DNA from: a virus
Strand: one strand, 5' to 3'
IMG/VR virus record: IMGVR_UViG_3300025849_002046
Location: 1 to 31,630 of that record
DNA: 31,630 nt
Below the pieces are notes generated by a model. It was not told where the DNA came from. It saw only the letters and a list, made by a program, of their open reading frames with translations, and did not search any database. Within the stretch, counting starts at the first letter, position 1. The number at the start of each line of letters is the position of its first letter. Positions 8,069-25,936 of the stretch are shown here, piece after piece. A program made the position numbers and the translations under genes.

Positions 8069-9141
8069 TATAATGAAAATCCTTTAAATGTGGACTCATC
8101 CAAGTCCTTCTTGATTCCCCCAATCACATACGATGTGATTTCAGTTTCTTGCGGTGCCACTTGAACATCTGACCCGCTAATCCACTTTTGCGTCCAAGGT
8201 AACGGATTACTACCGCCACGATTGTTTGACATTCCGATGGAATACATTCTCTTATTTGCGATCCAATCTATATAGTCGCATAACAGTGACTCATTGAGTC
8301 CAATCATAGTTCCATCTTTAAACAAATATTTCGCCCAAGATTTTTCTTGATTGACAACCTCTGAAAAGATATTTATCACTTCTTCATTTGTCTCCTCGGC
8401 AATCTTGATGAAATCTGTATCTTCTTTAGGCAATAACTTAATCAACTGTTGCGTAGATGCCAGATGAATATTCTCATCACGAGCAATAAACTTGATAATC
8501 TTTGCGTTGCCTTCCATCTTCTTGAGTTCAGCGAATGCCCACGAACAAGCAAACGACACATAGAATCGAATACCCTCTAAAGCATTCACGGCATTCAGTG
8601 CTAACCATAAAGACCTTTTATGCTCGTAACTACCAAAGTCAGGATTTATTCCATTTCGCATTATTAAATCATCATAATATTTTGAGATTGAATCTGCACA
8701 ATCCACAATCTCTTTTATATTTAACATCGTATCAAATACTTCAGATGGTTGTGAGTAGATGTTTCGTATAATGTGAGTATAAGATCGCGAGTGTATAGTC
8801 TCAAAAAATGACCAAGTGACCAACCAGTTCTCAAGTTCAGGCAACGAACAGACGGGTAGAAATGCTTCAACGGGTCCACGACCCTGAACCGAATCCAGAA
8901 GTATCTGTCGCTTTAGATTGCTGGTGAAGATATGCTTTTCATGATCAGTCAATGATTTAAAGTCTTTGCTGTCTTTACTAATATCAACTTCTTCTGGTCG
9001 CCAAAAAAATCCTAGTTGTTTGTCAGTTAGTTTTTCAAAAATATTATATTTCTGTTTATCATAACGAGCAATGTTAACAGGCTCACCAAAAAATATAGGT
9101 TGTTCTGTTGCGTCAATCTTTTTTGTATTGAATATAGACAT
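8068..9141 (-). CDS. nrdB: Class Ia ribonucleotide reductase small subunit NrdB
   Basis: The 357-aa protein has every expected radical and di-iron residue: Asp83, Glu114, His117 and Tyr121 in FFETIHSRSYTHI, Glu189, and Glu223/His226 in RDENIHL. FFWRPEEVD supplies the conserved Trp. It makes the tyrosyl radical used by NrdA to reduce ribonucleotides. The C-terminal tail DLDESTFKGFSL is the likely NrdA-binding peptide. The start overlaps the stop of the 82-aa gene as TAATG. It follows nrdA with one small gene between, as in a dedicated dNTP operon. Confidence 0.97.
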   Translation of the reverse strand: MSIFNTKKIDATEQPIFFGEPVNIARYDKQKYNIFEKLTDKQLGFFWRPEEVDISKDSKDFKSLTDHEKHIFTSNLKRQILLDSVQGRGPVEAFLPVCSLPELENWLVTWSFFETIHSRSYTHIIRNIYSQPSEVFDTMLNIKEIVDCADSISKYYDDLIMRNGINPDFGSYEHKRSLWLALNAVNALEGIRFYVSFACSWAFAELKKMEGNAKIIKFIARDENIHLASTQQLIKLLPKEDTDFIKIAEETNEEVINIFSEVVNQEKSWAKYLFKDGTMIGLNESLLCDYIDWIANKRMYSIGMSNNRGGSNPLPWTQKWISGSDVQVAPQETEITSYVIGGIKKDLDESTFKGFSL

Positions 9142-15657: not shown

Positions 15658-15891
15658 TTAGTCTTCCTTTTTTATTATTAACATATCTAAAAGATATTTT
15701 GACTTCGAACCAATTTCCTTAATCTTACCGTTTACAACGAGATAGGTTTTCTTTACATCAAACGCATATTTATCAGATCGCGTTTCTCGTATCTCATCGC
15801 GCCATGTATCTTTTCTTTTACTGGAAACAAGGCTAACCGGAGGTGATACCACCTCATGGTTTTTTTCAACCACTTTGTCTCTCCAGCCCAT
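15658..15891 (-). CDS. Small hypothetical protein, 77 aa
   Basis: The protein contains two copies of a WRD motif, GWRDKVVEK at the start and TWRDEIRETRSD in the middle, followed by a beta-like FDVKKTYLVVNGKIKEIG. I do not know a family. Its start overlaps the stop of the 643-aa modular protein, and it ends one base before the 179-aa structural gene, so it is embedded in the head-type gene block. The duplicated WRD(K/E) segment may be a docking peptide. Confidence 0.6.
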   Translation of the reverse strand: MGWRDKVVEKNHEVVSPPVSLVSSKRKDTWRDEIRETRSDKYAFDVKKTYLVVNGKIKEIGSKSKYLLDMLIIKKED

Positions 15892-17822
15892 CAGCTTTTA
15901 CCAGATTTTTTCATCGCTTTGGAAATTGCTTTTCGCCGATTCTTCAGGTATTTATCAGATTTGTCAACATCACCATCGTTGTCGATGTCGGCGTCTGCTT
16001 TACCTACGGGATCGAGTGCTTCCTTAGTGTGATAACCTTTATTGTCGCAATGATCGCAACCTTCTCCCTCGCACTTCGGACATTCTTCCTTTTCTTTTTC
16101 GTTCACGATCTCTTCATATATGTTCATTAACTCTTTGATCATGGTTGTTTCCTCTTCTACTGATTCCATATACTCTTTTGCCTTCATCTTTACATCGTGT
16201 GTCGAGCGAAGTTCATTAGCCGCAAACTGTGAGATCCACTTGATCTTTGCCTTTGCAAGATGCATGAGGTCTTCTTTGTCGATAGATTTAATATACTTCT
16301 TCATTTTCTTGTAAGCAGGACCTGTGACATCGATCTTATCAATCGAGCCGTACTCTTTCTTGAGTTTAGCGATAAGTTTGGGTGGTATCGGACCCCGACC
16401 CTCCGAAAATAAACGGTTTATTATTGACTCATCAACCTGCACGACTGACTCTTTGATAACGTCACCAATCTTTCTGCCGGGTGAAAAGTATCCGCGGAAG
16501 TCTTTGTTTATCTTTTTGCCATCGGCTTTCATCTTTTTGATTTCTTTTTCTTGATCTCTTTTGCTTCCAGCGAAAACGACTTTCCAACCGTTTGGATCTT
16601 TCACGGCGACAACGTAAGCATCACTTTTCATCTCATCAAGTTCAACTGACTCTGCAACATCTGAGATCATACGAGCAAACTTCAACTTAGCTCCGCGTGT
16701 TTCGAATTTGACTTCATCAATTTCACCAGAAGATGATTCTTGTGTGAGATAATAAACCATGCCTTTGTCGAGATTGACTTTAACCAGCGGGAAGATATCA
16801 CCTGCGACTGTAGATCGAGTGGCATAGCGGAACACTTGCTCGCCAGATTTAATATTTGCTCCTCTCAAATCTTTTTTGTCTACAGACTTGAGATGAAATA
16901 GGACCATTGCTTTTATCGGTGAGTCACCAATCACACCAGCTTCTTTATAACCTTTCTTGCGACCATAACTCAGTGCTTTGTCTTCGCCAAAATCGTTCGC
17001 ATTCTTTGTAGTAAAGAATTTAAATGCTTCATCAACCTGATCGACTTCTTCTTTCTGAACCTTTCCAAGTTTAACAGTCTTCCAATCAGCACCAGCTACT
17101 TTAGCCGCTTTCTTGATAGCTTCCCGAGAATTTCTGGCTCTAACTGGAACCTTCTTCTTAAGCGCAGGAAGTTCTACTGTCCAAGTGTCCATCATCGCTT
17201 CATCTAGTTCGACTTCTTCTTTCAGATGCTTATCAAGGATTGCTTGGATCTTACTGCGATTAGAGCCTTTAACTTTCTTTACAAACTGATCAAGTTCTTT
17301 CATATCGCCTTGACTCACAAGGAATGCTGTCATCTCAGCATCCTCGCCGCCCATCTTCTTCAAGGCAGTTTCAGCAGCACCACGCTTTGCAATCTTCTTT
17401 CGAAGAGATGACTCGGACAAATCCTCATCAAACGACCTGATCTTTTCATTCTTTCGTAATGCTTTAATTAAGTTCGCAGTAAACACCCTTTTCTCCCTAG
17501 GTTTTTTAAATGCATCATGTTTTTTCAAAAGTGCATCAATCATTTTCTTATTTAGTTTTACTTTTTTACCGGCCGGTGAAACTCGAATTTCCGTATTACC
17601 ACCAACATCTTGTGCCTTACGGAGTTGCATGATTATATTTTTATCAGCGGGATCGGCAGAACCCCTGAATGTGTTGCCTTTCGCATTCTTCTCATCAGGT
17701 TTTTTCGCAACCTTCTTCGGCGCTAGTTTTTTCTTAGAGCGAGATGCCTTACGCTTCGCAATCATTTCTTTTTCTCGGTCGGTGAGTTCTGAAATGAGAC
17801 TGAATTTTTTGAAGTCACTCAT
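15891..17822 (-). CDS. Modular capsid-cargo/core-type polyprotein, 643 aa
   Basis: I start it at 17822: GAGGA lies 8 bases upstream and the ATG overlaps the previous stop. The N-terminus MSDFKKFSLISE resembles a capsid-targeting leader ending in I-x-E. Globular modules are joined by short acidic linkers: EEVELDEA at 202-209, EEVDQVDEA at 258-266, ESVELDEM at 391-398 and ESVVQVDES at 458-466. LxE followed by a small residue is the T4 gp21 protease cleavage pattern. A module near 470-550 (PPKLIAKLKKEYG) recurs in marine phage proteins. The end has CPKCEGEGCDHC (581-592, DnaJ-like zinc site) and a DADIDNDGDVDKSD loop (610-623, calcium-binding type). It is probably packaged in the head and processed. 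Confidence 0.72.
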   Translation of the reverse strand: MSDFKKFSLISELTDREKEMIAKRKASRSKKKLAPKKVAKKPDEKNAKGNTFRGSADPADKNIIMQLRKAQDVGGNTEIRVSPAGKKVKLNKKMIDALLKKHDAFKKPREKRVFTANLIKALRKNEKIRSFDEDLSESSLRKKIAKRGAAETALKKMGGEDAEMTAFLVSQGDMKELDQFVKKVKGSNRSKIQAILDKHLKEEVELDEAMMDTWTVELPALKKKVPVRARNSREAIKKAAKVAGADWKTVKLGKVQKEEVDQVDEAFKFFTTKNANDFGEDKALSYGRKKGYKEAGVIGDSPIKAMVLFHLKSVDKKDLRGANIKSGEQVFRYATRSTVAGDIFPLVKVNLDKGMVYYLTQESSSGEIDEVKFETRGAKLKFARMISDVAESVELDEMKSDAYVVAVKDPNGWKVVFAGSKRDQEKEIKKMKADGKKINKDFRGYFSPGRKIGDVIKESVVQVDESIINRLFSEGRGPIPPKLIAKLKKEYGSIDKIDVTGPAYKKMKKYIKSIDKEDLMHLAKAKIKWISQFAANELRSTHDVKMKAKEYMESVEEETTMIKELMNIYEEIVNEKEKEECPKCEGEGCDHCDNKGYHTKEALDPVGKADADIDNDGDVDKSDKYLKNRRKAISKAMKKSGKS

Positions 17823-19176
17823 CTGATGGATCCTCATCTGAATCTGATGTTGGATTTTTGACTCTATCGCGAAAGTCTTGTCTAATTTTTGTTGTTGTTG
17901 TTCGTGAAACATCATCAATTGAAGATGCCTTTCTCAATAACTTTCTCAGTGCTTGGTTGACCTTTCCCTGACTTGGCGCGTCCATATAGAATGTCGGTAG
18001 ACCCTCTACATCCACTTTAAAGGTTGCTTCATCAAGATCAACTTCTTCAGCAACATCGCCTTTCGCATAACCATAAAGTGTTTTTAAATAGTCATTTGCC
18101 TTGGTGAGTTTATTCTGATACCACTCTTCCATATCGCCTTTTGCCTCGACGCTTGATTCGATACCATCAAGGTAATGGCGCATAGCAGCAATTTGTTTTT
18201 TCGCCATACTGACTTCCTCAGCACCGCCAGTATCAGAAGGATCAACTGCTTCATTCAAAGTATCCTGCATTTTCATGTAGTCTTTATCAGAAACAAAGTT
18301 TTTGTAAAGTGGCACCGAATGTTTCTTACCTTTCAGTGTAAAATAAATTTCTTTATTATTTTGACCGACATTTTTACCGCCATTCTTCATTATTTCTTTA
18401 CGAACAGTGGTAGAAATAACTGCGCCTTCATCAAGATCAACTTCTTCTAATTGAAAAGATGGATAATCGATTAAGTGTTTTGGCATTTGGCCTTTCTTGA
18501 CCATATCTCGAAACACCTTATCTAGATCAGGAATACGAATACCTGTCATTTGAGAAGTCTTTCTAAGATTCTGTACAGGACTATTTGGATTCTTTTTTCT
18601 CAAATCTAAGAACAAACGAATTGCTTTTTTATATTTGGAAGGCTGTGTCATTCTACTTAAAAATGATTTTATATCAGTTGTGGTGTCTTCATCAACTTCC
18701 TCGTTTCTAACTTTAGCGGCGAGATCGGCATCGGCCTTTCCCCATGTGCCCGAAGATTTAGTCACGAAAGAGTTGACCCTAGCAAGACCCCATTGCTCTG
18801 GAGTAGTTCCCGGACGGTGACCTGTTCGCCACGCAGCAACTCCACGATTGTATACCTTACGAAGTATGCTCACCGGCATACCAGTCTTATCTGCCTTATT
18901 CTTGAGTGCTTTACCAGCATCTTCAATGACAACTTCTTCGTGGTTTTTCTCTTCACCATACATATCTTTGAATTTTTTAGTATGACTAGATGGTTTGGTC
19001 TTGGCATCCGCATCACCCGGCGCAGGTTTGTACGCGGCCGCATTATCGTCATCCATTTTCGCACCTTTTTTAAAGTGAGCATCACGCTTTGTCTTTGTAG
19101 ACTTTGCAAGACCAGTATGGTACTTCTTTGGTTGAGAACCTTTACGATCTTTTATGTCTGGGTCTTCAGCTGCCAT
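17815..19176 (-). CDS. Modular capsid-cargo/core-type polyprotein, 453 aa
   Basis: The start at 19176 has AGAGGA 5 bases upstream and overlaps the previous stop by 11 bases. Modules in order are DPDIKDRKGSQPKKY with AHFKKGAKMDDDN (about 5-70), GKALKNKADKTGMP to SSGTWGKADADL (about 88-152), a basic helical domain (165-240), a domain at 250-305, a helical EEWYQNKLTKAND region (320-372) and a final helical part. The first two are modules I recall from many phages and some large viruses, with no known function. Linkers EEVVIEDA, EEVDLDEG (244-251) and EEVDLDEA (377-384) repeat between them and fit gp21-type cleavage sites. The basic modules could bind DNA in the head. No catalytic site is recognised. 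Confidence 0.72.
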   Translation of the reverse strand: MAAEDPDIKDRKGSQPKKYHTGLAKSTKTKRDAHFKKGAKMDDDNAAAYKPAPGDADAKTKPSSHTKKFKDMYGEEKNHEEVVIEDAGKALKNKADKTGMPVSILRKVYNRGVAAWRTGHRPGTTPEQWGLARVNSFVTKSSGTWGKADADLAAKVRNEEVDEDTTTDIKSFLSRMTQPSKYKKAIRLFLDLRKKNPNSPVQNLRKTSQMTGIRIPDLDKVFRDMVKKGQMPKHLIDYPSFQLEEVDLDEGAVISTTVRKEIMKNGGKNVGQNNKEIYFTLKGKKHSVPLYKNFVSDKDYMKMQDTLNEAVDPSDTGGAEEVSMAKKQIAAMRHYLDGIESSVEAKGDMEEWYQNKLTKANDYLKTLYGYAKGDVAEEVDLDEATFKVDVEGLPTFYMDAPSQGKVNQALRKLLRKASSIDDVSRTTTTKIRQDFRDRVKNPTSDSDEDPSDE

Positions 19177-19411
19177 TTTGTTCCTCTGGTGTAGGAATAA
19201 CTGTCTCTGGGTCAACATCAACTGCTGCCGGTGCAGGATCAGGAACTTCTACCGTATTGTTTTGTGTTACTGCTTCAACTTCATCTGGTGTCGCATGTTG
19301 TTGTGGTGCAAACTGCGACTCCAAATCCTTCTGATAGAGATTTTGATTTTTCATCATAATGTCTCTAACTGCGGCCATAACGCTTTCTGGTGTGTCATCT
19401 AATTTTGACAT
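19166..19411 (-). CDS. Small acidic hypothetical protein, 81 aa
   Basis: The first half is helical (PESVMAAVRDIMMKNQNLYQ), and the second half is acidic and proline-rich (EVPDPAPAAVDVDPETVIPTPEE), so likely disordered. It overlaps the 453-aa modular gene by 11 bases and directly abuts the cupin-like gene. Its size and charge would suit a small scaffold or head-core component, but I recognise no family. No signal or membrane segment. Confidence 0.6.
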   Translation of the reverse strand: MSKLDDTPESVMAAVRDIMMKNQNLYQKDLESQFAPQQHATPDEVEAVTQNNTVEVPDPAPAAVDVDPETVIPTPEEQNGS

Positions 19412-19681
19412 TCAATTTTCCTCATCAATTAATAATATTAAAGGTGTTGTTCCTTTGACAACACGATGATATCTCATGGATTCAATCGTGAATGTATCAC
19501 CTTTGTTCAACTTAAACGGAATCTCATTATCATACTGAAATTGCCATCCTTCACCTGACATCACATCAACTTTTCGGTCGTGTTCGTCTTGGTGCCACAC
19601 CAACTCTATTTCAGGCACATCTAATGAGAAGGTCCTCATTTTCTTTCCATCGTGCATTAACAATTCTAGATATGGATTCAT
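19412..19681 (-). CDS. Cupin-like small protein, 89 aa
   Basis: The start at 19681 overlaps the previous stop as TAATG; the longer frame upstream would run deep into the NTase gene. The pattern HQDEHDRKVDVMSGEGWQFQYD, PFKLNKGDTFTIES, YHRVVKGTTPLILLIDE has the beta-strand spacing of a cupin barrel (gGxWxf, GDxfxIxxxxxHRvvkG). A histidine is available in each half. No specific enzyme can be named; it may be a metal-binding or purely structural cupin. It sits within the head-type gene block. Confidence 0.65.
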   Translation of the reverse strand: MNPYLELLMHDGKKMRTFSLDVPEIELVWHQDEHDRKVDVMSGEGWQFQYDNEIPFKLNKGDTFTIESMRYHRVVKGTTPLILLIDEEN

Positions 19682-21399
19682 TACCAGAAATAATTTCCAC
19701 CACCAGAAAGACCAAGTTGTTTCGCGAATTGTGGCAATCTGCACGCCCAATATCCTGGTTTGGTTTTATCTTTCTTCATATCACACTGATGACGAGCAAC
19801 AAATGACTTTCTTGCTGCGGGATCATCAAGTTTTACTTTTAATCCAGAAGTATCGCCAAACGATACCTTCTTTATATTGCCTGTATTCGGGTCTTTGACA
19901 TGCACATAGAACTTCTTTGGACCACCGCGTTTGGGTTTATTTAGTTCAACATCTTCTTCTTCATTTAACATGGGTAAGTCTAAAGGAACTTCAATTCCCT
20001 CATACAAACCAAACTCACCAATATCAGAGGTGAGTAGTTCGTGATCAAATGAATCACCCACCGACAGTGTGCCTGCGGCATATTGTTTCTTCGCCTCAGT
20101 ATACAACTTATAATAATTCGCACTATGCATTCGGAATATGTTTTCTGAGAACGGTATGTCTTCAATCAAATGATGATCAATCGCTTCATTGATCTTTTGT
20201 TTTTGATTATTGGCGAGAATAACATTAAGACGATCAAATGTCCACTGTTCTTCTGATTTAGTATTTTCGTGAACATAATAAGAACCACGACAATCAATAT
20301 ATAAGTTTTTTATCTCTTCAAGTGAAACGCCATAACGATCACTTTTTTTTATTAAATTCTTTTCAATGCTTTCGCTGATTGTCTCATATTCCACTTGTTC
20401 AATTATGGGCATCAGAAGAGGCGCTAACTCCTCGTTTTTCTTGCTTCGCATTTTTTTGAATCGTTCAGTCTCATCTCGTTTGACCTTGCTCTTCAATTTC
20501 TTAGCAATACGAGCTATCGCTGATTTCTTCTTCTCAACTTTCTTGTCAATTGCCATACGACCAGAAACCGAGAGATTGGCGTAGTTTTCACCACCTTTAC
20601 CGGCAACCTTCTTACGAATGATTTCTTTTGCTTGGCGTTGAGCCCTCATCTTTAGTTTTTCCGGTGATGCTCTTTTCTTCGCAGCAATCTTTTTACCGCG
20701 AGCGATTTTGGACTTCAGTTTTCGCATGATTTGTTTGCGCTTCATGCGTTGTCGTTGATCCAACACCTCTGTGAGTTCTTCTGTAATACCCATATTTTCC
20801 CTTATAGTATCATACATTATCTTAGAATCACGGTCGCTCAACTTACTAGGCACTCCTTTGCGGAATTCGTCATACTTACCATCAGTGGCAAACGCTCGCA
20901 GTTTTGATGCGCTCATACCAGAAACATCGTTGGCATCAGGGTCGCGATCACCAGCAGAAACTATTTCAAGACTATTATAGTTATAGTCTTTACCATTATA
21001 CTTGTTTAGTAGTGTTTTAAACTCGGACACGCGATCGCTTCCTACAACAACCTTTACATCGTCATAGTCTTTATCGAGTTCTTTTAGAACTTCTATGATT
21101 GTTCGGGCCTTGGATTTTTTCATCACATTGCCGAATGATTTTTTGGCGAACTTATACTTGTCGTTATAAGAGAGGGGATTCGTCTTTTTGTCCTGCTTAT
21201 GGGACATATAAACCTTTGCGTCTGCGCCTTCTTTCTTCGCGACAGACTTCACCTTATCAACCAGTTTCTCGTGACCAGTTGTAGGTGGATTTAGTCTACC
21301 AAAAGAAACGACTGCGGCAGACCCGGCTTTCTCGGATAAATGAGACTTTTCGATGTTTTCCAGTGAACGCCCAACACTGTTATTTTCGGTTACTTTCAT
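19681..21399 (-). CDS. Nucleotidyltransferase fused to phage cargo modules, 572 aa
   Basis: The first 200 residues form a cytidylyltransferase-like domain. FGRLNPPTTGHEKL (34-47) is the HxGH-type nucleotide motif and GMSASKLRAF (161-170) is the late (S/T)xxR motif, as in NMN or pantetheine-phosphate adenylyltransferases. The substrate is not evident. A very basic middle (about 215-325, RMKRKQIMRKLKSKIARGK and similar) could bind DNA. The last 85 residues hold the recurrent phage module RKSFVARHQCDMKKDKTKPGYW ending in GGGNYFW. HLSEK near residue 20 and LNEEEDVELN are possible head-protease sites. A perfect TATAAATA lies 69 bases upstream, so late expression is likely. The enzyme may be packaged in the capsid. 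Confidence 0.78.
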   Translation of the reverse strand: MKVTENNSVGRSLENIEKSHLSEKAGSAAVVSFGRLNPPTTGHEKLVDKVKSVAKKEGADAKVYMSHKQDKKTNPLSYNDKYKFAKKSFGNVMKKSKARTIIEVLKELDKDYDDVKVVVGSDRVSEFKTLLNKYNGKDYNYNSLEIVSAGDRDPDANDVSGMSASKLRAFATDGKYDEFRKGVPSKLSDRDSKIMYDTIRENMGITEELTEVLDQRQRMKRKQIMRKLKSKIARGKKIAAKKRASPEKLKMRAQRQAKEIIRKKVAGKGGENYANLSVSGRMAIDKKVEKKKSAIARIAKKLKSKVKRDETERFKKMRSKKNEELAPLLMPIIEQVEYETISESIEKNLIKKSDRYGVSLEEIKNLYIDCRGSYYVHENTKSEEQWTFDRLNVILANNQKQKINEAIDHHLIEDIPFSENIFRMHSANYYKLYTEAKKQYAAGTLSVGDSFDHELLTSDIGEFGLYEGIEVPLDLPMLNEEEDVELNKPKRGGPKKFYVHVKDPNTGNIKKVSFGDTSGLKVKLDDPAARKSFVARHQCDMKKDKTKPGYWACRLPQFAKQLGLSGGGNYFW

Positions 21400-22175: not shown

Positions 22176-23441
22176 TTATTTTTCCCAACCTTTGATTATG
22201 TCCGGTGAAAAATTGGCCTGAGAGAATCCCAATCGGTCAACCAATTTTACAGCATCATTGGATAGATGGTCTATCGCAACAAATCCTTCCTGTTCCGTCA
22301 CTTTGAATCCATTGCGTGTTCGTAGAAAGGTAGACATACCACTCGCTTTATTCATTTTATTTATAATCAAATCTTTAGCGTCTGCCAGTAGATTGACCAA
22401 TAAGAATACATTTGATAAATCGTTTTTACTATATTCGTTAAAGACTGACATCGCATCAATCTGTCTATCGACCCAGACTTTCTTTGACTTCTCCGTTTTC
22501 TTTTTATCAATTTCTTTTTGATAGAAATTGTAAATGTAATCCATCAATCCTTTGACATGAGTTTTAGGATTAATCTTCTTTCCTGCTCGAACGAATGTAT
22601 TATTATACACCTTGGTTTTTTCTCGGAACTCTTTATTGTTCTTAAACTCATCAAGAAGTTTCGACGGTATCTTACGGAACAATGCGCCAGCAGATGAGAG
22701 TATTTTTGTCACCTCTTCTGTTTCTGATTTAGTAAATGATGCCGCTCCACTCACATCTTTATAGGTTGCATCGTCTTGCCAAATAGAAGAACTAGATTTA
22801 AATCCCTTCACTATATCTTTACCAAAAGAAGCAGACATAGACTCAAAAGAATCACCAGTGTAAGTAGTATGCCAAACAACACCGATATTAGCTTTGAATA
22901 TCGATTTTCCAAGACTAGACTTGACAGGCACAGCATAAACAATAGTGTTAGGTTGAAAAGTATAAAGACTTTCTCCATCGATGGTCTCCTTACTAACGTC
23001 ACCTTTCGTAAACATTAGGTCGCCTTGATATACTCCACTCTTAATTCCTAACTTGGAGAATTCCTCAAGTGCGATCAGTAACTTTGTTTGAAGGTCGCCG
23101 GAAGTATCTGCCTTCACATCTGCGGGAGTCTTGTATACCTTTGGGTTCTTATTAAAGATACCTTTCTTTGCAACGAAGAACTCACCGTCACGCGGGTCAA
23201 CACCAACAAATATAGCAGGAGCACCATCCCACTTGACCGTTCGGATAACTGATGATTTGTTATTGCCCGACAACATGTCACGAAGGTCACGGAGGAAATT
23301 GATTGACTTGCGGGTTCCTTTCACACCTCCATCAAATATTAGGTCCTCAAGTCAAAGGTGCTCCATGTGTGTGTTCTTTTGTTCAATTAAGAAACGGTCG
23401 AACGACAACACGGAGCGGAAACCTCCTGATTGTTTTATCAT
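22176..23441 (-). CDS. KWDGAPA-motif protein, interrupted by in-frame TGA
   Basis: The frame from 22176 is open to 23351 and continues in the same frame, after one TGA at 23354-23352, up to an ATG at 23441. The piece before the TGA reads SFDRFLIEQKNTHMEHL and the piece after it LEDLIFDGGVKGTRKSINF. Together they look like the continuous N-terminus (THMEHLEDLIFDGG) of a family common in T4-like marine phages. The only starts after the TGA are a GTG at 23324, with GGAGG too close to work well, and internal ATGs. TVKWDGAPAIFVG resembles the KxDG site of covalent nucleotidyltransferases and ligases, but the family has no proven function that I know. GTG at 23411 with AGGAGG 10 bases upstream is an alternative start. 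See the recoding site. Confidence 0.75.
23349..23357 (-). other. CTT-TGA-CTT: possible recoding or bypass site
   Basis: On the minus strand the codons run CAC CTT TGA CTT GAG GAC. The stop is flanked on both sides by identical Leu codons. Moving peptidyl-tRNA-Leu from the first CTT to the second would skip TGA and give HMEHLEDLIFDGG, the expected family sequence; reading through would give HMEHL-x-LEDL. UGA followed by C is a leaky stop context. CACCT (23360-23356) can pair with AGGTG (about 23328-23324) to enclose the site. It could equally be a simple 6-base insertion that breaks the gene. Confidence 0.55.
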
Positions 23442-23483: not shown

Positions 23484-24161
23484 CTATGTTTTGTTTCTGG
23501 CTTTCTCTTGAGAGATCCATCCTTTAGCAAGTTTATTATCAATTGGTCTTTTTGTAAACTTCAATACGTCTTTATATGCCCGAAGCGTCTCTGCCTTATA
23601 GTCCTTACCGTTTGAGTTATCAACCACTAAAAAGTTCTTTTTGCCAAAATGGGTTTGAAACATACCGATATTCTTCTGAATTAATTCCCACATCTTAGCG
23701 ACTTCTTCATCGGGCAATGAACGCTCGCGGTTTCGATTACGTTCAAGTGCGGTTTCTTTGTCGGTGTTTACAAATATCATTGAAACATCATAACCTAAAT
23801 CTTTCATCATCTTGGATTGCTTTTTGAGTTTTGCGAAGTCTCGGCCTGTTCCATCAATAACAACACCTAAACGACCTTTCAAATATCTCTCTAACTTTTT
23901 AGCGGTGATCATTTTTGCTCTACCACGAATTGCTTGACCTTCATTAGAGAAAATCTCATCAGGTGTCATTGCCTTACCAGACTTCTTCATTGCATTCTCA
24001 AATGCATCGTCTGAGTTGACAACACGGAAACCAAGTTGCGGAAGACCAGTCTTACCTACGATGAATGACTTACCAGAACCAGGACCACCTGCGAGGAAAA
24101 CTGCTTTAAAAATTGCGGGGTCATTGACTCCCTCAGAAATAAATTGATTAAATGTTTTCAT
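23484..24161 (-). CDS. P-loop kinase/zeta-toxin-like protein with capsid-targeting N-terminus
   Basis: The 225-aa protein has VFLAGGPGSGKSFIVG as Walker A (21-36). A basic helical lid (FVNTDKETALERNRNRERSLPDEEV) is of the kind found in zeta-toxin and polynucleotide-kinase-like P-loop enzymes, and VVIDGTGRDF may be Walker B. It should phosphorylate an unknown substrate. The first residues MKTFNQFISEG closely resemble the capsid-targeting leader of T4 internal proteins (MKTYQEFIAE, cut after the last E), so the enzyme may be packaged into the head. The start overlaps the previous stop as ATGA. The family is clear; the packaging is inference. Confidence 0.82.
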   Translation of the reverse strand: MKTFNQFISEGVNDPAIFKAVFLAGGPGSGKSFIVGKTGLPQLGFRVVNSDDAFENAMKKSGKAMTPDEIFSNEGQAIRGRAKMITAKKLERYLKGRLGVVIDGTGRDFAKLKKQSKMMKDLGYDVSMIFVNTDKETALERNRNRERSLPDEEVAKMWELIQKNIGMFQTHFGKKNFLVVDNSNGKDYKAETLRAYKDVLKFTKRPIDNKLAKGWISQEKARNKT

Positions 24162-24589
24162 TTTTTCTCCATGTGAAAAACATCTGAACTCGAAGATGAC
24201 TTGTCAGTTGTTGTCTTGTATCCCCACTTGGAAGCGTATCTTTTTAACAGTTTGCTGTATAAACTTGTTCTACTAACACCCATAGATTTGTCTGCCGTGA
24301 ACGACACATAGTTTGGCTTTACTTTTTTAAGAAATTTCTCAGTCGCGGAAATCACTGTGGCGAAGATTTTCATTTCGTCGCCTTCACCTGTTTTTTTAAT
24401 ACTGCCGTCACGGGTAAATACAATGTTCCACTGTATGTCATCAAATTCGACACCGGTGAATTCTATTTCCAAATTTGATCCGTCAGGTAACTTTGTCTTA
24501 GAGACATACTCCAGGCTGTCAACTTTCTTTAGTTTGACAGGATAAGGTTTATCGAATGCCTCTAAAATAAACTGATTAAATGTTTTCAT
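24158..24589 (-). CDS. Hypothetical protein with capsid-targeting N-terminus, 143 aa
   Basis: MKTFNQFILEAF at the N-terminus is nearly the same as that of the next gene, and the rest of the two proteins is unrelated. The body reads SLEIEF-type beta strands, then GEGDEMKIFATVISATEKFLKKVKPNYVSFTADK and RTSLYSKLLKRYASKWGY. This layout is shared with a family of phage proteins I recall as unannotated, possibly acetyltransferase-like (GNAT). The second ATG (24589) has AGGA at 6 bases and is preferred. It overlaps the P-loop gene by ATGA. It may be packaged in the head like its neighbour. Confidence 0.72.
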   Translation of the reverse strand: MKTFNQFILEAFDKPYPVKLKKVDSLEYVSKTKLPDGSNLEIEFTGVEFDDIQWNIVFTRDGSIKKTGEGDEMKIFATVISATEKFLKKVKPNYVSFTADKSMGVSRTSLYSKLLKRYASKWGYKTTTDKSSSSSDVFHMEKK

Positions 24590-24649
24590 CATAAATCCTT
24601 TACTTAAATGAGAAATCGCACATTACTCGATAGAAGTTTTATTTCTATC

Positions 24650-24657
24650 TATTTATC
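24650..24657 (-). promoter_or_regulatory. Possible late-type promoter (GATAAATA)
   Basis: GATAAATA, one mismatch from the late consensus, lies 61 bases before the 143-aa gene and partly overlaps the stop of the 426-aa gene. The gap 24593-24655 otherwise holds nothing recognised. Position and neighbours support a late promoter, but the octamer is frequent by chance here. Confidence 0.45.
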
Positions 24658-25936
24658 AATGGCCGATTCCGTTAAATTTAATAGCCAAATTAAATCCCTG
24701 TGCGATTTTATTATTCGGCGGTGGTTGATTGGTACGAATAGACATTTTCATCGTAATTGTTTCTTTTGCAATAAGATCGATAAACCATTCCTGTTTCGAC
24801 GATGACGATTTACGCGCTACAATTTTTTTACAACCCGGAAGATGCGTTTCAATTGCGTCTTCATCTGTCACATATTTAAAATCTTTTCCGAATGCCTTCA
24901 CGACCTCAAGAGGCACATTCTCGTCTCTTTTAATAATTTTTCTTTTAATGTAATTTTCTGCGTCTTTCTTATTCAAATTGACCGCATCGATTACCGCTTT
25001 TCTACACAACTCCAACTGTTTGTCGTACAGTGTTTCATACTCGGCCGGTTTATCTGTCTTAAACTGTTCAATCGTTTCAATTGCATCTTTCTTATTGGCT
25101 GCCTCTTGCCACTTCTCCGGTAAACCCACCTTTTCGTGTACGTTTCTGTACACCGAGGCCTTCAATTTATTCTTGTCGGTCTGACGATTCATATCATCAA
25201 AGAACTTATTAACGTATGTATTTAATTGAGGTTCAGCAGACTTCGCGCTGCCGGCTTTCAGTGATACACCTAGCATACTTCCAGTCTTAAACTTAACAAA
25301 TAGATCGCCTTTGTGGTCGGTATTGACACCTATTGGTTTTGCACGATAAGCAAAATAGACTTGTTCGATTGGCGTATCTTTGTCGAGTGCCCATAGATAT
25401 TTGAGTACACCCATTGCATTCTCCATCTTCTCTTTAAACTTAGAAGATGTTGGCATATCTTTAATGAAGTCATGTCCTGCTTGTTGATCTTTTGTGTTTA
25501 GATAACAACCAGACTGGTTTGCCTGTTTAAGGGTTGCTTCCAGAAAAGAATAAAATTTATTCACATCTGAGAAAGTCTTCTTATTGGACATGAATGCCAG
25601 TGCAGGCGCCAGTTCGGTGATCGTTGAATTCAAAGTTGTTTCAGACATACCGCCTGACAAAGCTTTGTAGGTGACTCTGACTTTGTAATCATCAACCATA
25701 ATGTCAGTCGCGCCGATACTTCCACCAGCACGAACACCAACATAGTCATATTTTTTAGTTTTTAGTTTTTTCTCAATAGCAACCTTCACATCTGATCGTT
25801 CTGTGGAAGGTGCCCGCACAATCACAATTGCAGTCGAGTTATTTTGTTCTTTAATTGTGTATGTGTAAGGCGCAATGCACTTTTTCAGCGCATTTTCTTT
25901 TGTTATGCTAAGTTTATTAATACGTCCCGCGGCCAT
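24656..25936 (-). CDS. Hypothetical protein, 426 aa
   Basis: I do not recognise this gene. The N-terminal 120 residues are mixed alpha-beta and basic, with AGGSIGATDIMVDDYKVRVTYKALSGG near 70-96. A middle part has NTDHKGDLFVKFKTG and GVSLKAGSAKSAEPQLNTY, faintly like a D...(S)xK nuclease core of the PD-(D/E)XK type. The rest is mostly helical and charged, ending in a beta-rich KQEWFIDLIAKETITMKMSI segment. Nothing suggests a signal peptide. It is the first gene of the late-type block, preceded by CATAAATA 33 bases before the start. A virion or head-packaged protein is possible. Confidence 0.7.
   Translation of the reverse strand: MAAGRINKLSITKENALKKCIAPYTYTIKEQNNSTAIVIVRAPSTERSDVKVAIEKKLKTKKYDYVGVRAGGSIGATDIMVDDYKVRVTYKALSGGMSETTLNSTITELAPALAFMSNKKTFSDVNKFYSFLEATLKQANQSGCYLNTKDQQAGHDFIKDMPTSSKFKEKMENAMGVLKYLWALDKDTPIEQVYFAYRAKPIGVNTDHKGDLFVKFKTGSMLGVSLKAGSAKSAEPQLNTYVNKFFDDMNRQTDKNKLKASVYRNVHEKVGLPEKWQEAANKKDAIETIEQFKTDKPAEYETLYDKQLELCRKAVIDAVNLNKKDAENYIKRKIIKRDENVPLEVVKAFGKDFKYVTDEDAIETHLPGCKKIVARKSSSSKQEWFIDLIAKETITMKMSIRTNQPPPNNKIAQGFNLAIKFNGIGH

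Follow-up and report, generated by a model that had tools for sequence, protein, structure and literature searches.

Unrelated adjacent proteins of a marine phage genome fragment share a T4-like leader that probably marks cargo of the phage head

The DNA analysed here, referred to as the window, is the complete virus record IMGVR_UViG_3300025849_002046 (31,630 bases), a genome fragment whose gene cassette matches those of Methylophilales phage Melnitz and Pelagibacter phage HTVC008M, both Kyanoviridae (Table 1). Two adjoining genes on its minus strand, coding for a 144-aa protein and a P-loop protein, open with MKTFNQFILEAFDKP (MKTFNQFILE/A, from position 24589, directly preceded by another ATG at 24592) and MKTFNQFISEGVNDP (MKTFNQFISE/G, from 24161), respectively; a slash marks the junction behind Glu. 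BLASTP comparison of the two proteins aligns only residues 1–15 (10/15 identical) and nothing else notable. Recent gene duplication as the source of the shared opening was rejected, since the bodies do not align. This agrees with the preliminary description of the DNA, made from the sequence alone, which had reported two adjacent proteins with a common opening and dissimilar bodies: both starts were confirmed, and the alignment ends at residue 15. When the search was extended to the rest of the record, as that description had proposed, the degenerate DNA pattern for MKTFNQFI gave exactly two matches in the 31,630 bases, both at these starts, and the reversed pattern gave none. The leader DNA of the two genes is near-identical, forming an almost unbroken run ATGAAAACATTTAATCA-TTTATTT, and diverges right after it, which suggests that the leader is a copied module.

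Table 1. Leaders, cassette genes and related features of the window.
Feature	Position	Strand	Evidence and remarks
Leader MKTFNQFILE of 144-aa protein	24560..24589	-	Predicted cut before Ala11; sequence pattern and Glu10/Ala-Ser11 selectivity
144-aa protein, weak DUF6934 match	24158..24589	-	Profile match; AlphaFold model GNAT/antizyme-like, undecisive
Leader MKTFNQFISE of P-loop protein	24132..24161	-	Predicted cut before Gly11; Glu/Gly junction in 93/93 extracted family members
225-aa P-loop kinase, AAA_33/Zeta toxin clan	23484..24161	-	Remote similarity to T4 polynucleotide kinase and adenylate kinase
Leader MLSFDRFLIE of KWDGAPA gene	23382..23411	-	GTG start, AGGAGG ahead
In-frame TGA in KWDGAPA gene	23352..23354	-	Within 6-base insertion relative to extracted homologues
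KWDGAPA (DUF6267) body	22176..23348	-	Ligase-type motifs KxDG, QGD, EGFV, KLVDR in order
426-aa conserved cassette protein (phrog_2496), without leader here	24656..25936	-	
572-aa protein, cytidylyltransferase-like domain, without canonical leader	19681..21399	-	Homologous to three virion-detected nucleotidyltransferases
468-aa protein (DUF5824), internal sites EEVDLDE/G and EEVDLDE/A	17815..19221	-	
643-aa protein, possible packaged polyprotein	15891..17822	-	7 internal [LIVF]xE/[AGS] sites

In phage T4, internal proteins reach the prohead core by means of a capsid-targeting sequence of ten residues; mutational mapping assigned its positions 4 and 7 to targeting and 8 and 10 to processing, with Asp10 stopping processing but not targeting (PMC9026906). 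Both window leaders carry F4, F7, I8, and E10, that is, all four mapped positions, and like IPI, IPII, and IPIII of T4 they consist of ten N-terminal residues with an aromatic residue at 4, Phe7, Ile8, Glu10, and a small residue at 11. In the T4 genome the leader form is found at three starts, two of which read MKTYQEFIAE, so the T4-like length, spacing, and end pointed out earlier are borne out. The third start, MKTFKEFIKE, belongs to gp61.1 (AF158101, 18966-19130), a 54-aa hypothetical protein that could be an internal protein of the head so far overlooked.

Two other openings had been likened to these leaders. That of the KWDGAPA protein (SFDRFLIEQ) is real, with a GTG start at 23411, but an in-frame TGA splits it from the body. 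The TGA lies in a 6-base insertion (region 23349-23360, reading CAC CTT TGA CTT GAG), and the extracted homologues are uninterrupted. The window copy may be a dead gene, unless the stop is bypassed; the matching CTT codons on either side would permit this, while plain loss of function would be the simpler reading. The 643-aa protein opens with MSDFKKFSLISE (from 17822, minus strand); its aromatic residues are in place (4 and 7), but Glu stands at 12, followed by Leu, and the fit is loose.

The P-loop protein, previously called kinase-like, does match a profile of the AAA_33/Zeta clan. Its further matches are weak (adenylate kinases, E = 1e-4; T4 polynucleotide kinase 1ly1, E = 0.0016; Zeta, E = 0.0035) and put it at a similar distance from polynucleotide kinase, adenylate kinases, and Zeta; it is also distantly similar to the kinase part of a Twort kinase-phosphatase-Rnl1 ligase. 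For the 144-aa protein, the AlphaFold model (pLDDT 73) gave SpeG in Foldseek (E = 2e-4, TM 0.49), and in VIA-align the GNAT fold, an RNase E domain, and antizyme came out level at Z 8.7. A 778-aa protein of phage Atu_ph07 (record L011, 5485-7821) contains the kinase of the window behind a TE/GVND junction, and hhalign finds two segments further along that are similar to the 144-aa protein (E = 0.02 and 3e-4). By its sequence it appears to be a natural fusion of the two adjacent window genes. A Pfam search of this protein returned P-loop families only; its N-terminal part, read by eye, is putatively ADP-ribosyltransferase-like.

The KWDGAPA protein had been described as ligase-like. Ligase-type motifs are indeed present, in order and invariant in 30 sequences (K39xD41G42, Q108G109D110, E354G355xV, K368), but the profile search retrieved no ligase sequence and comparison of the model with the PDB gave no fold match below E = 0.001. 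In the absence of a PDB relative, the term ligase is therefore used as a motif-level lead.

The leader is widespread in IMG/VR. The pattern MKTF(x)[QE]F[ILMF]xE is present in at least 120 DNA stretches, against 4 for a permuted version with the same residues, and when residue 10 is varied behind MKTFK[QE]FIx, Glu is found in at least 120 stretches, Asp in 7, and Lys in 4. Matches lie at ORF starts in 233 of 245 cases. In two sets of relatives the leader is found at 2.4% of first against 0.05% of inner ATGs, and at 4.2% against 0.16%, corresponding to about 45-fold and 27-fold enrichment. Given this enrichment, the permuted control, and the Asp and Lys counts, chance was rejected as the source of the leader. 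The 224 distinct leader proteins fall into 111 unrelated body clusters. At residue 11, which the pattern leaves unconstrained, 84 of them have Ala and 52 have Ser (61%), the preference that a head-protease site would be expected to show, with the reservation that some of the 224 are related to each other, which makes a binomial p for this residue optimistic.

Look-alike N-termini, such as MKSFKQHLTE/GVNDP and MKSFKKYIAE/AAGKN, also precede the bodies of two unrelated families, those of the kinase (93 members) and of KWDGAPA (116 rows). The Glu/Gly junction of the kinase is kept in every extracted member, even in those with the rest of the leader replaced. Elsewhere the leader is followed by ADP-ribosyltransferase, SAM lyase, GNAT, RimK, protein kinase, and nucleotidyltransferase domains, and several leader proteins are small and outside known families. 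One 14-kb contig, L245 (IMGVR_UViG_3300025288_000189), carries seven leader ORFs; its leader protein at 8395-8949 on the minus strand is an ART-PolyVal ADP-ribosyltransferase.

Published virion proteomes are available for three relatives, S-CREM2, S-SZBM1, and S-SCSM1. S-CREM2 has 219 CDS, and 52 proteins were found in its virion by mass spectrometry (PMC10665884). The strict leader is present at four annotated starts, and all four proteins are in the virion (p = 0.003): SAM lyase gp6 (MKDFDSFLEE), protein kinase gp14 (MKRFDAFLTE), gp136 (MQTFSMFFSE), and cytidylyltransferase gp154 (MKNFSSFLTE). Near-leaders are found on two further virion proteins, gp13 (MKDLHSFLTE) and gp12 (LRFASFMAEA behind 16 extra residues). 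The DNA-level pattern was run on S-CREM2 ahead of fetching the full annotation. A relaxed pattern added only unrelated short ORFs and gave a weaker statistic, so the strict form was kept.

The virion cytidylyltransferase of S-SZBM1 opens with MRFRQFIIEA (PMC9146016), and the virion NMNAT of S-SCSM1 with MKSFLQFLKEA (PMC9602691). Three leader proteins of 105, 106, and 165 aa were not detected in virions, two small ones of S-SZBM1 and the 106-aa one of S-SCSM1; the S-SZBM1 homologue of KWDGAPA, which has no leader, likewise went undetected (PMC9146016). Pooled over the three phages, 6/9 leader proteins are in virions (stratified exact p = 0.002). It was the cytidylyltransferases that prompted the test of virion association, and with the nucleotidyltransferases left out p is 0.012 for S-CREM2 alone and 0.08 for the pool.

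In S-SCSM1 the block corresponding to the window cassette contains seven genes (89-93, 95, 97) annotated as virion proteins (PMC9602691). Three of these cassette proteins, SSCSM1_89, 90, and 92, are in the virion and carry no strict leader, so the leader is not the sole route. The three virion nucleotidyltransferases are all homologues of the 572-aa protein of the window, which represents the only window family with virion-detected, leader-bearing relatives, although the window copy has no canonical leader. The kinase and 144-aa families were not seen in any examined phage with virion data, and no virion mass spectrometry was found for the phage of the window. Among the virion proteins, S-CREM2 gp160 (record L009, 16343-17236) and S-SCSM1 gp97 (record L335, 33122-33307) contain GATGFTGAAAPEGPVAGYDPLM-type segments; their match in the major capsid protein of S-CREM2, GADGFTGAAAPGGPNAGFDPVM, lies close to its N-terminus.

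A homologue of the T4 head protease gp21 had also been proposed as a target of the search. Peptidase_S77 is absent from the 31.6-kb fragment of the window, but a gp21-type S77 protease is encoded by its relatives Melnitz, HTVC008M, S-CREM2, and S-SZBM1, as well as by Atu_ph07, and the annotations of S-SCSM1 and T4 include a prohead protease. On IMG/VR contigs longer than 100 kb, S77 is found in 8/11 leader contigs against 1/3 neutral ones; this is compatible with a link between leader and protease, with numbers too small to serve as proof. Use of the co-occurrence as proof was dropped for the small number of neutral contigs. In record L384 (47,367 bases), the region 40032-41672 has S77 homology in two parts within a single 593-aa open frame.

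Taken together, these data make it highly probable that the shared opening is a T4-type capsid-targeting sequence marking head-packaged proteins, which would be cargo for early infection. Binding to the prohead core would fall to the aromatic residues at 4 and 7; Ile or Leu at 8 together with Glu10 would form the cut site of the S77 head protease, the leader acting as a module placed ahead of unrelated proteins. The tagged proteins would be built into the prohead, trimmed behind Glu10, and retained with the DNA in the mature head. In the window this cargo would comprise the P-loop kinase, the 144-aa protein, and the KWDGAPA gene product, which belong to a conserved marine-phage cassette whose nucleotidyltransferase occurs in virions of relatives. 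Ejected with the DNA, the cargo would be active within minutes of the start of infection, with nucleotides, NAD, or RNA as plausible targets; these substrates are the best guess because the cargo domain types match proposed packaged effectors. The idea of a capsid-packed enzyme set, put forward in the preliminary description, is largely supported for the relatives by published mass spectrometry, on which the leaders were mapped here, and by the selection at residues 10 and 11; for the phage of the window packaging is likely.

The leader proteins could instead be assembly helpers of the prohead core, like IPIII of T4, with incidental enzyme folds, packaged but idle in the new host. In T4, IPIII influences the shape of the head and the leader attaches to the core (PMC9026906), and the small leader proteins outside known families would fit such a role. 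However, the cargo includes catalytic families that are not known to take part in assembly (SAM lyase, ADP-ribosyltransferase, RimK, nucleotidyltransferase, kinase), and 111 body clusters are too varied for a single structural function, which makes this reading unlikely. Less probable still is that the detection in virions reflects carry-over of abundant cell proteins and that the likeness to the T4 leader is convergent. The counts are small, and neither the S-CREM2 nor the S-SCSM1 authors could rule out contamination of their proteomes (PMC10665884, PMC9602691); against this, the replication enzymes of S-CREM2 do not appear in the virion list that contains all four of its leader proteins, and the same enzyme was found in three separate studies. 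An expression or localisation signal unrelated to the capsid, such as a translation initiation context or a membrane association signal, is very improbable: it would agree with the position at the extreme N-terminus and the AT-rich DNA, but would leave unaccounted for the preference for Glu over Asp or Lys at 10 and for Ala or Ser at 11, and is opposed by the Glu/Gly junction retained in kinase homologues with other N-termini and by the virion association.

A narrower version of the packaging explanation, compatible with it, would have RNA or tRNA repair as the task of the kinase, KWDGAPA, and related cassette proteins: loaded in advance, they would heal and seal ends and thereby counter anticodon nucleases of the host. 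The invariant KxDG...QGD...EGFV...K series of KWDGAPA and the distant similarity of the kinase to T4 polynucleotide kinase and the Twort enzyme speak for it. The lack of a ligase fold in the PDB and of ligase sequences in the profile, the equal nearness of the kinase to adenylate kinases and Zeta, and the interruption of the KWDGAPA gene in the window speak against it, and this version is possible but on balance doubtful.

Viewed as head-packaged cargo, the leader proteins resemble the T4 internal proteins in that several unrelated bodies carry the leader and a gp21-type protease is encoded by relatives of the window. The phages are, however, of the Kyanoviridae-type marine group, and their cargo is a conserved enzyme-like set, with a cleavage that we infer, whereas that of T4 consists of small basic internal proteins. 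T4 Alt is a head-packaged enzyme acting on the host, and ADP-ribosyltransferase domains also occur behind the leader, but the cargo of the window is a kinase, the 144-aa protein, and DUF6267. Polyvalent proteins (Iyer et al., 2017, PMC5512222) share the domain types and are likewise early effectors proposed to be packaged, their packaging having been deduced from context; the 778-aa Atu_ph07 fusion is a comparable case. In the window, by contrast, each domain is a gene of its own behind a leader of its own, and the accessible parts of that study do not mention the leader. ADP-ribosyltransferase, SAM lyase, GNAT, RimK, and protein kinase are all among the types proposed as packaged effectors in two studies (PMC5512222, PMC9503650). 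Further counterparts are the virion-associated NMNAT/cytidylyltransferase and APH/ChoK kinase of S-CREM2, S-SZBM1, and S-SCSM1, with a homologous nucleotidyltransferase, a related cassette, and detection in virions. The leaders of these enzymes, which the accessible parts of their published descriptions do not mention, were identified in this analysis. Openly available literature yielded nothing tying the capsid-targeting sequence to cyanophages beyond one T4 review.

The packaging explanation offers an account of the kinases, SAM lyase, and NMNAT-like enzymes in purified cyanophage virions that were suspected contaminants. It also provides a simple sequence rule to predict virion cargo, probably injected enzymes, of uncultured T4-like phages, and indicates which conserved “hypothetical” genes of marine phages act in the first minutes of infection. 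We lean slightly towards a broader reading, in which T4-like marine phages carry modular, leader-tagged, host-acting head enzymes, including polyproteins diced by the protease and a “SDGHG” module, and the leader would be a general code for virion cargo.

The 643-aa protein contains 7 internal [LIVF]xE/[AGS] sites against 2.5 expected (p = 0.008), several of them of the form EEVxxDE and located between small domains. This pattern points to a possible polyprotein that is cleaved inside the head; in most homologues of the 643-aa protein the excess of protease-like sites is not significant. The C-terminal 41-residue module of the window protein has a 76% match to the virion protein SSCSM1_92. The SDGHG module, 37 residues of the form xGLxSDGHGxWxDxxGxxVAxTxxGxLxFxD, lies close behind the leader in cargo proteins: it is present in the S-SCSM1 NMNAT, the S-CREM2 Cas9-like protein, the S-CREM2 kinase (twice), and most of ten further loci. 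Loci with the module are found in records L326 (7704-10313 and 10579-12846), L335 (28820-30049), L179, L225, L232, L241, L243, L264, L278, L281, and L324.
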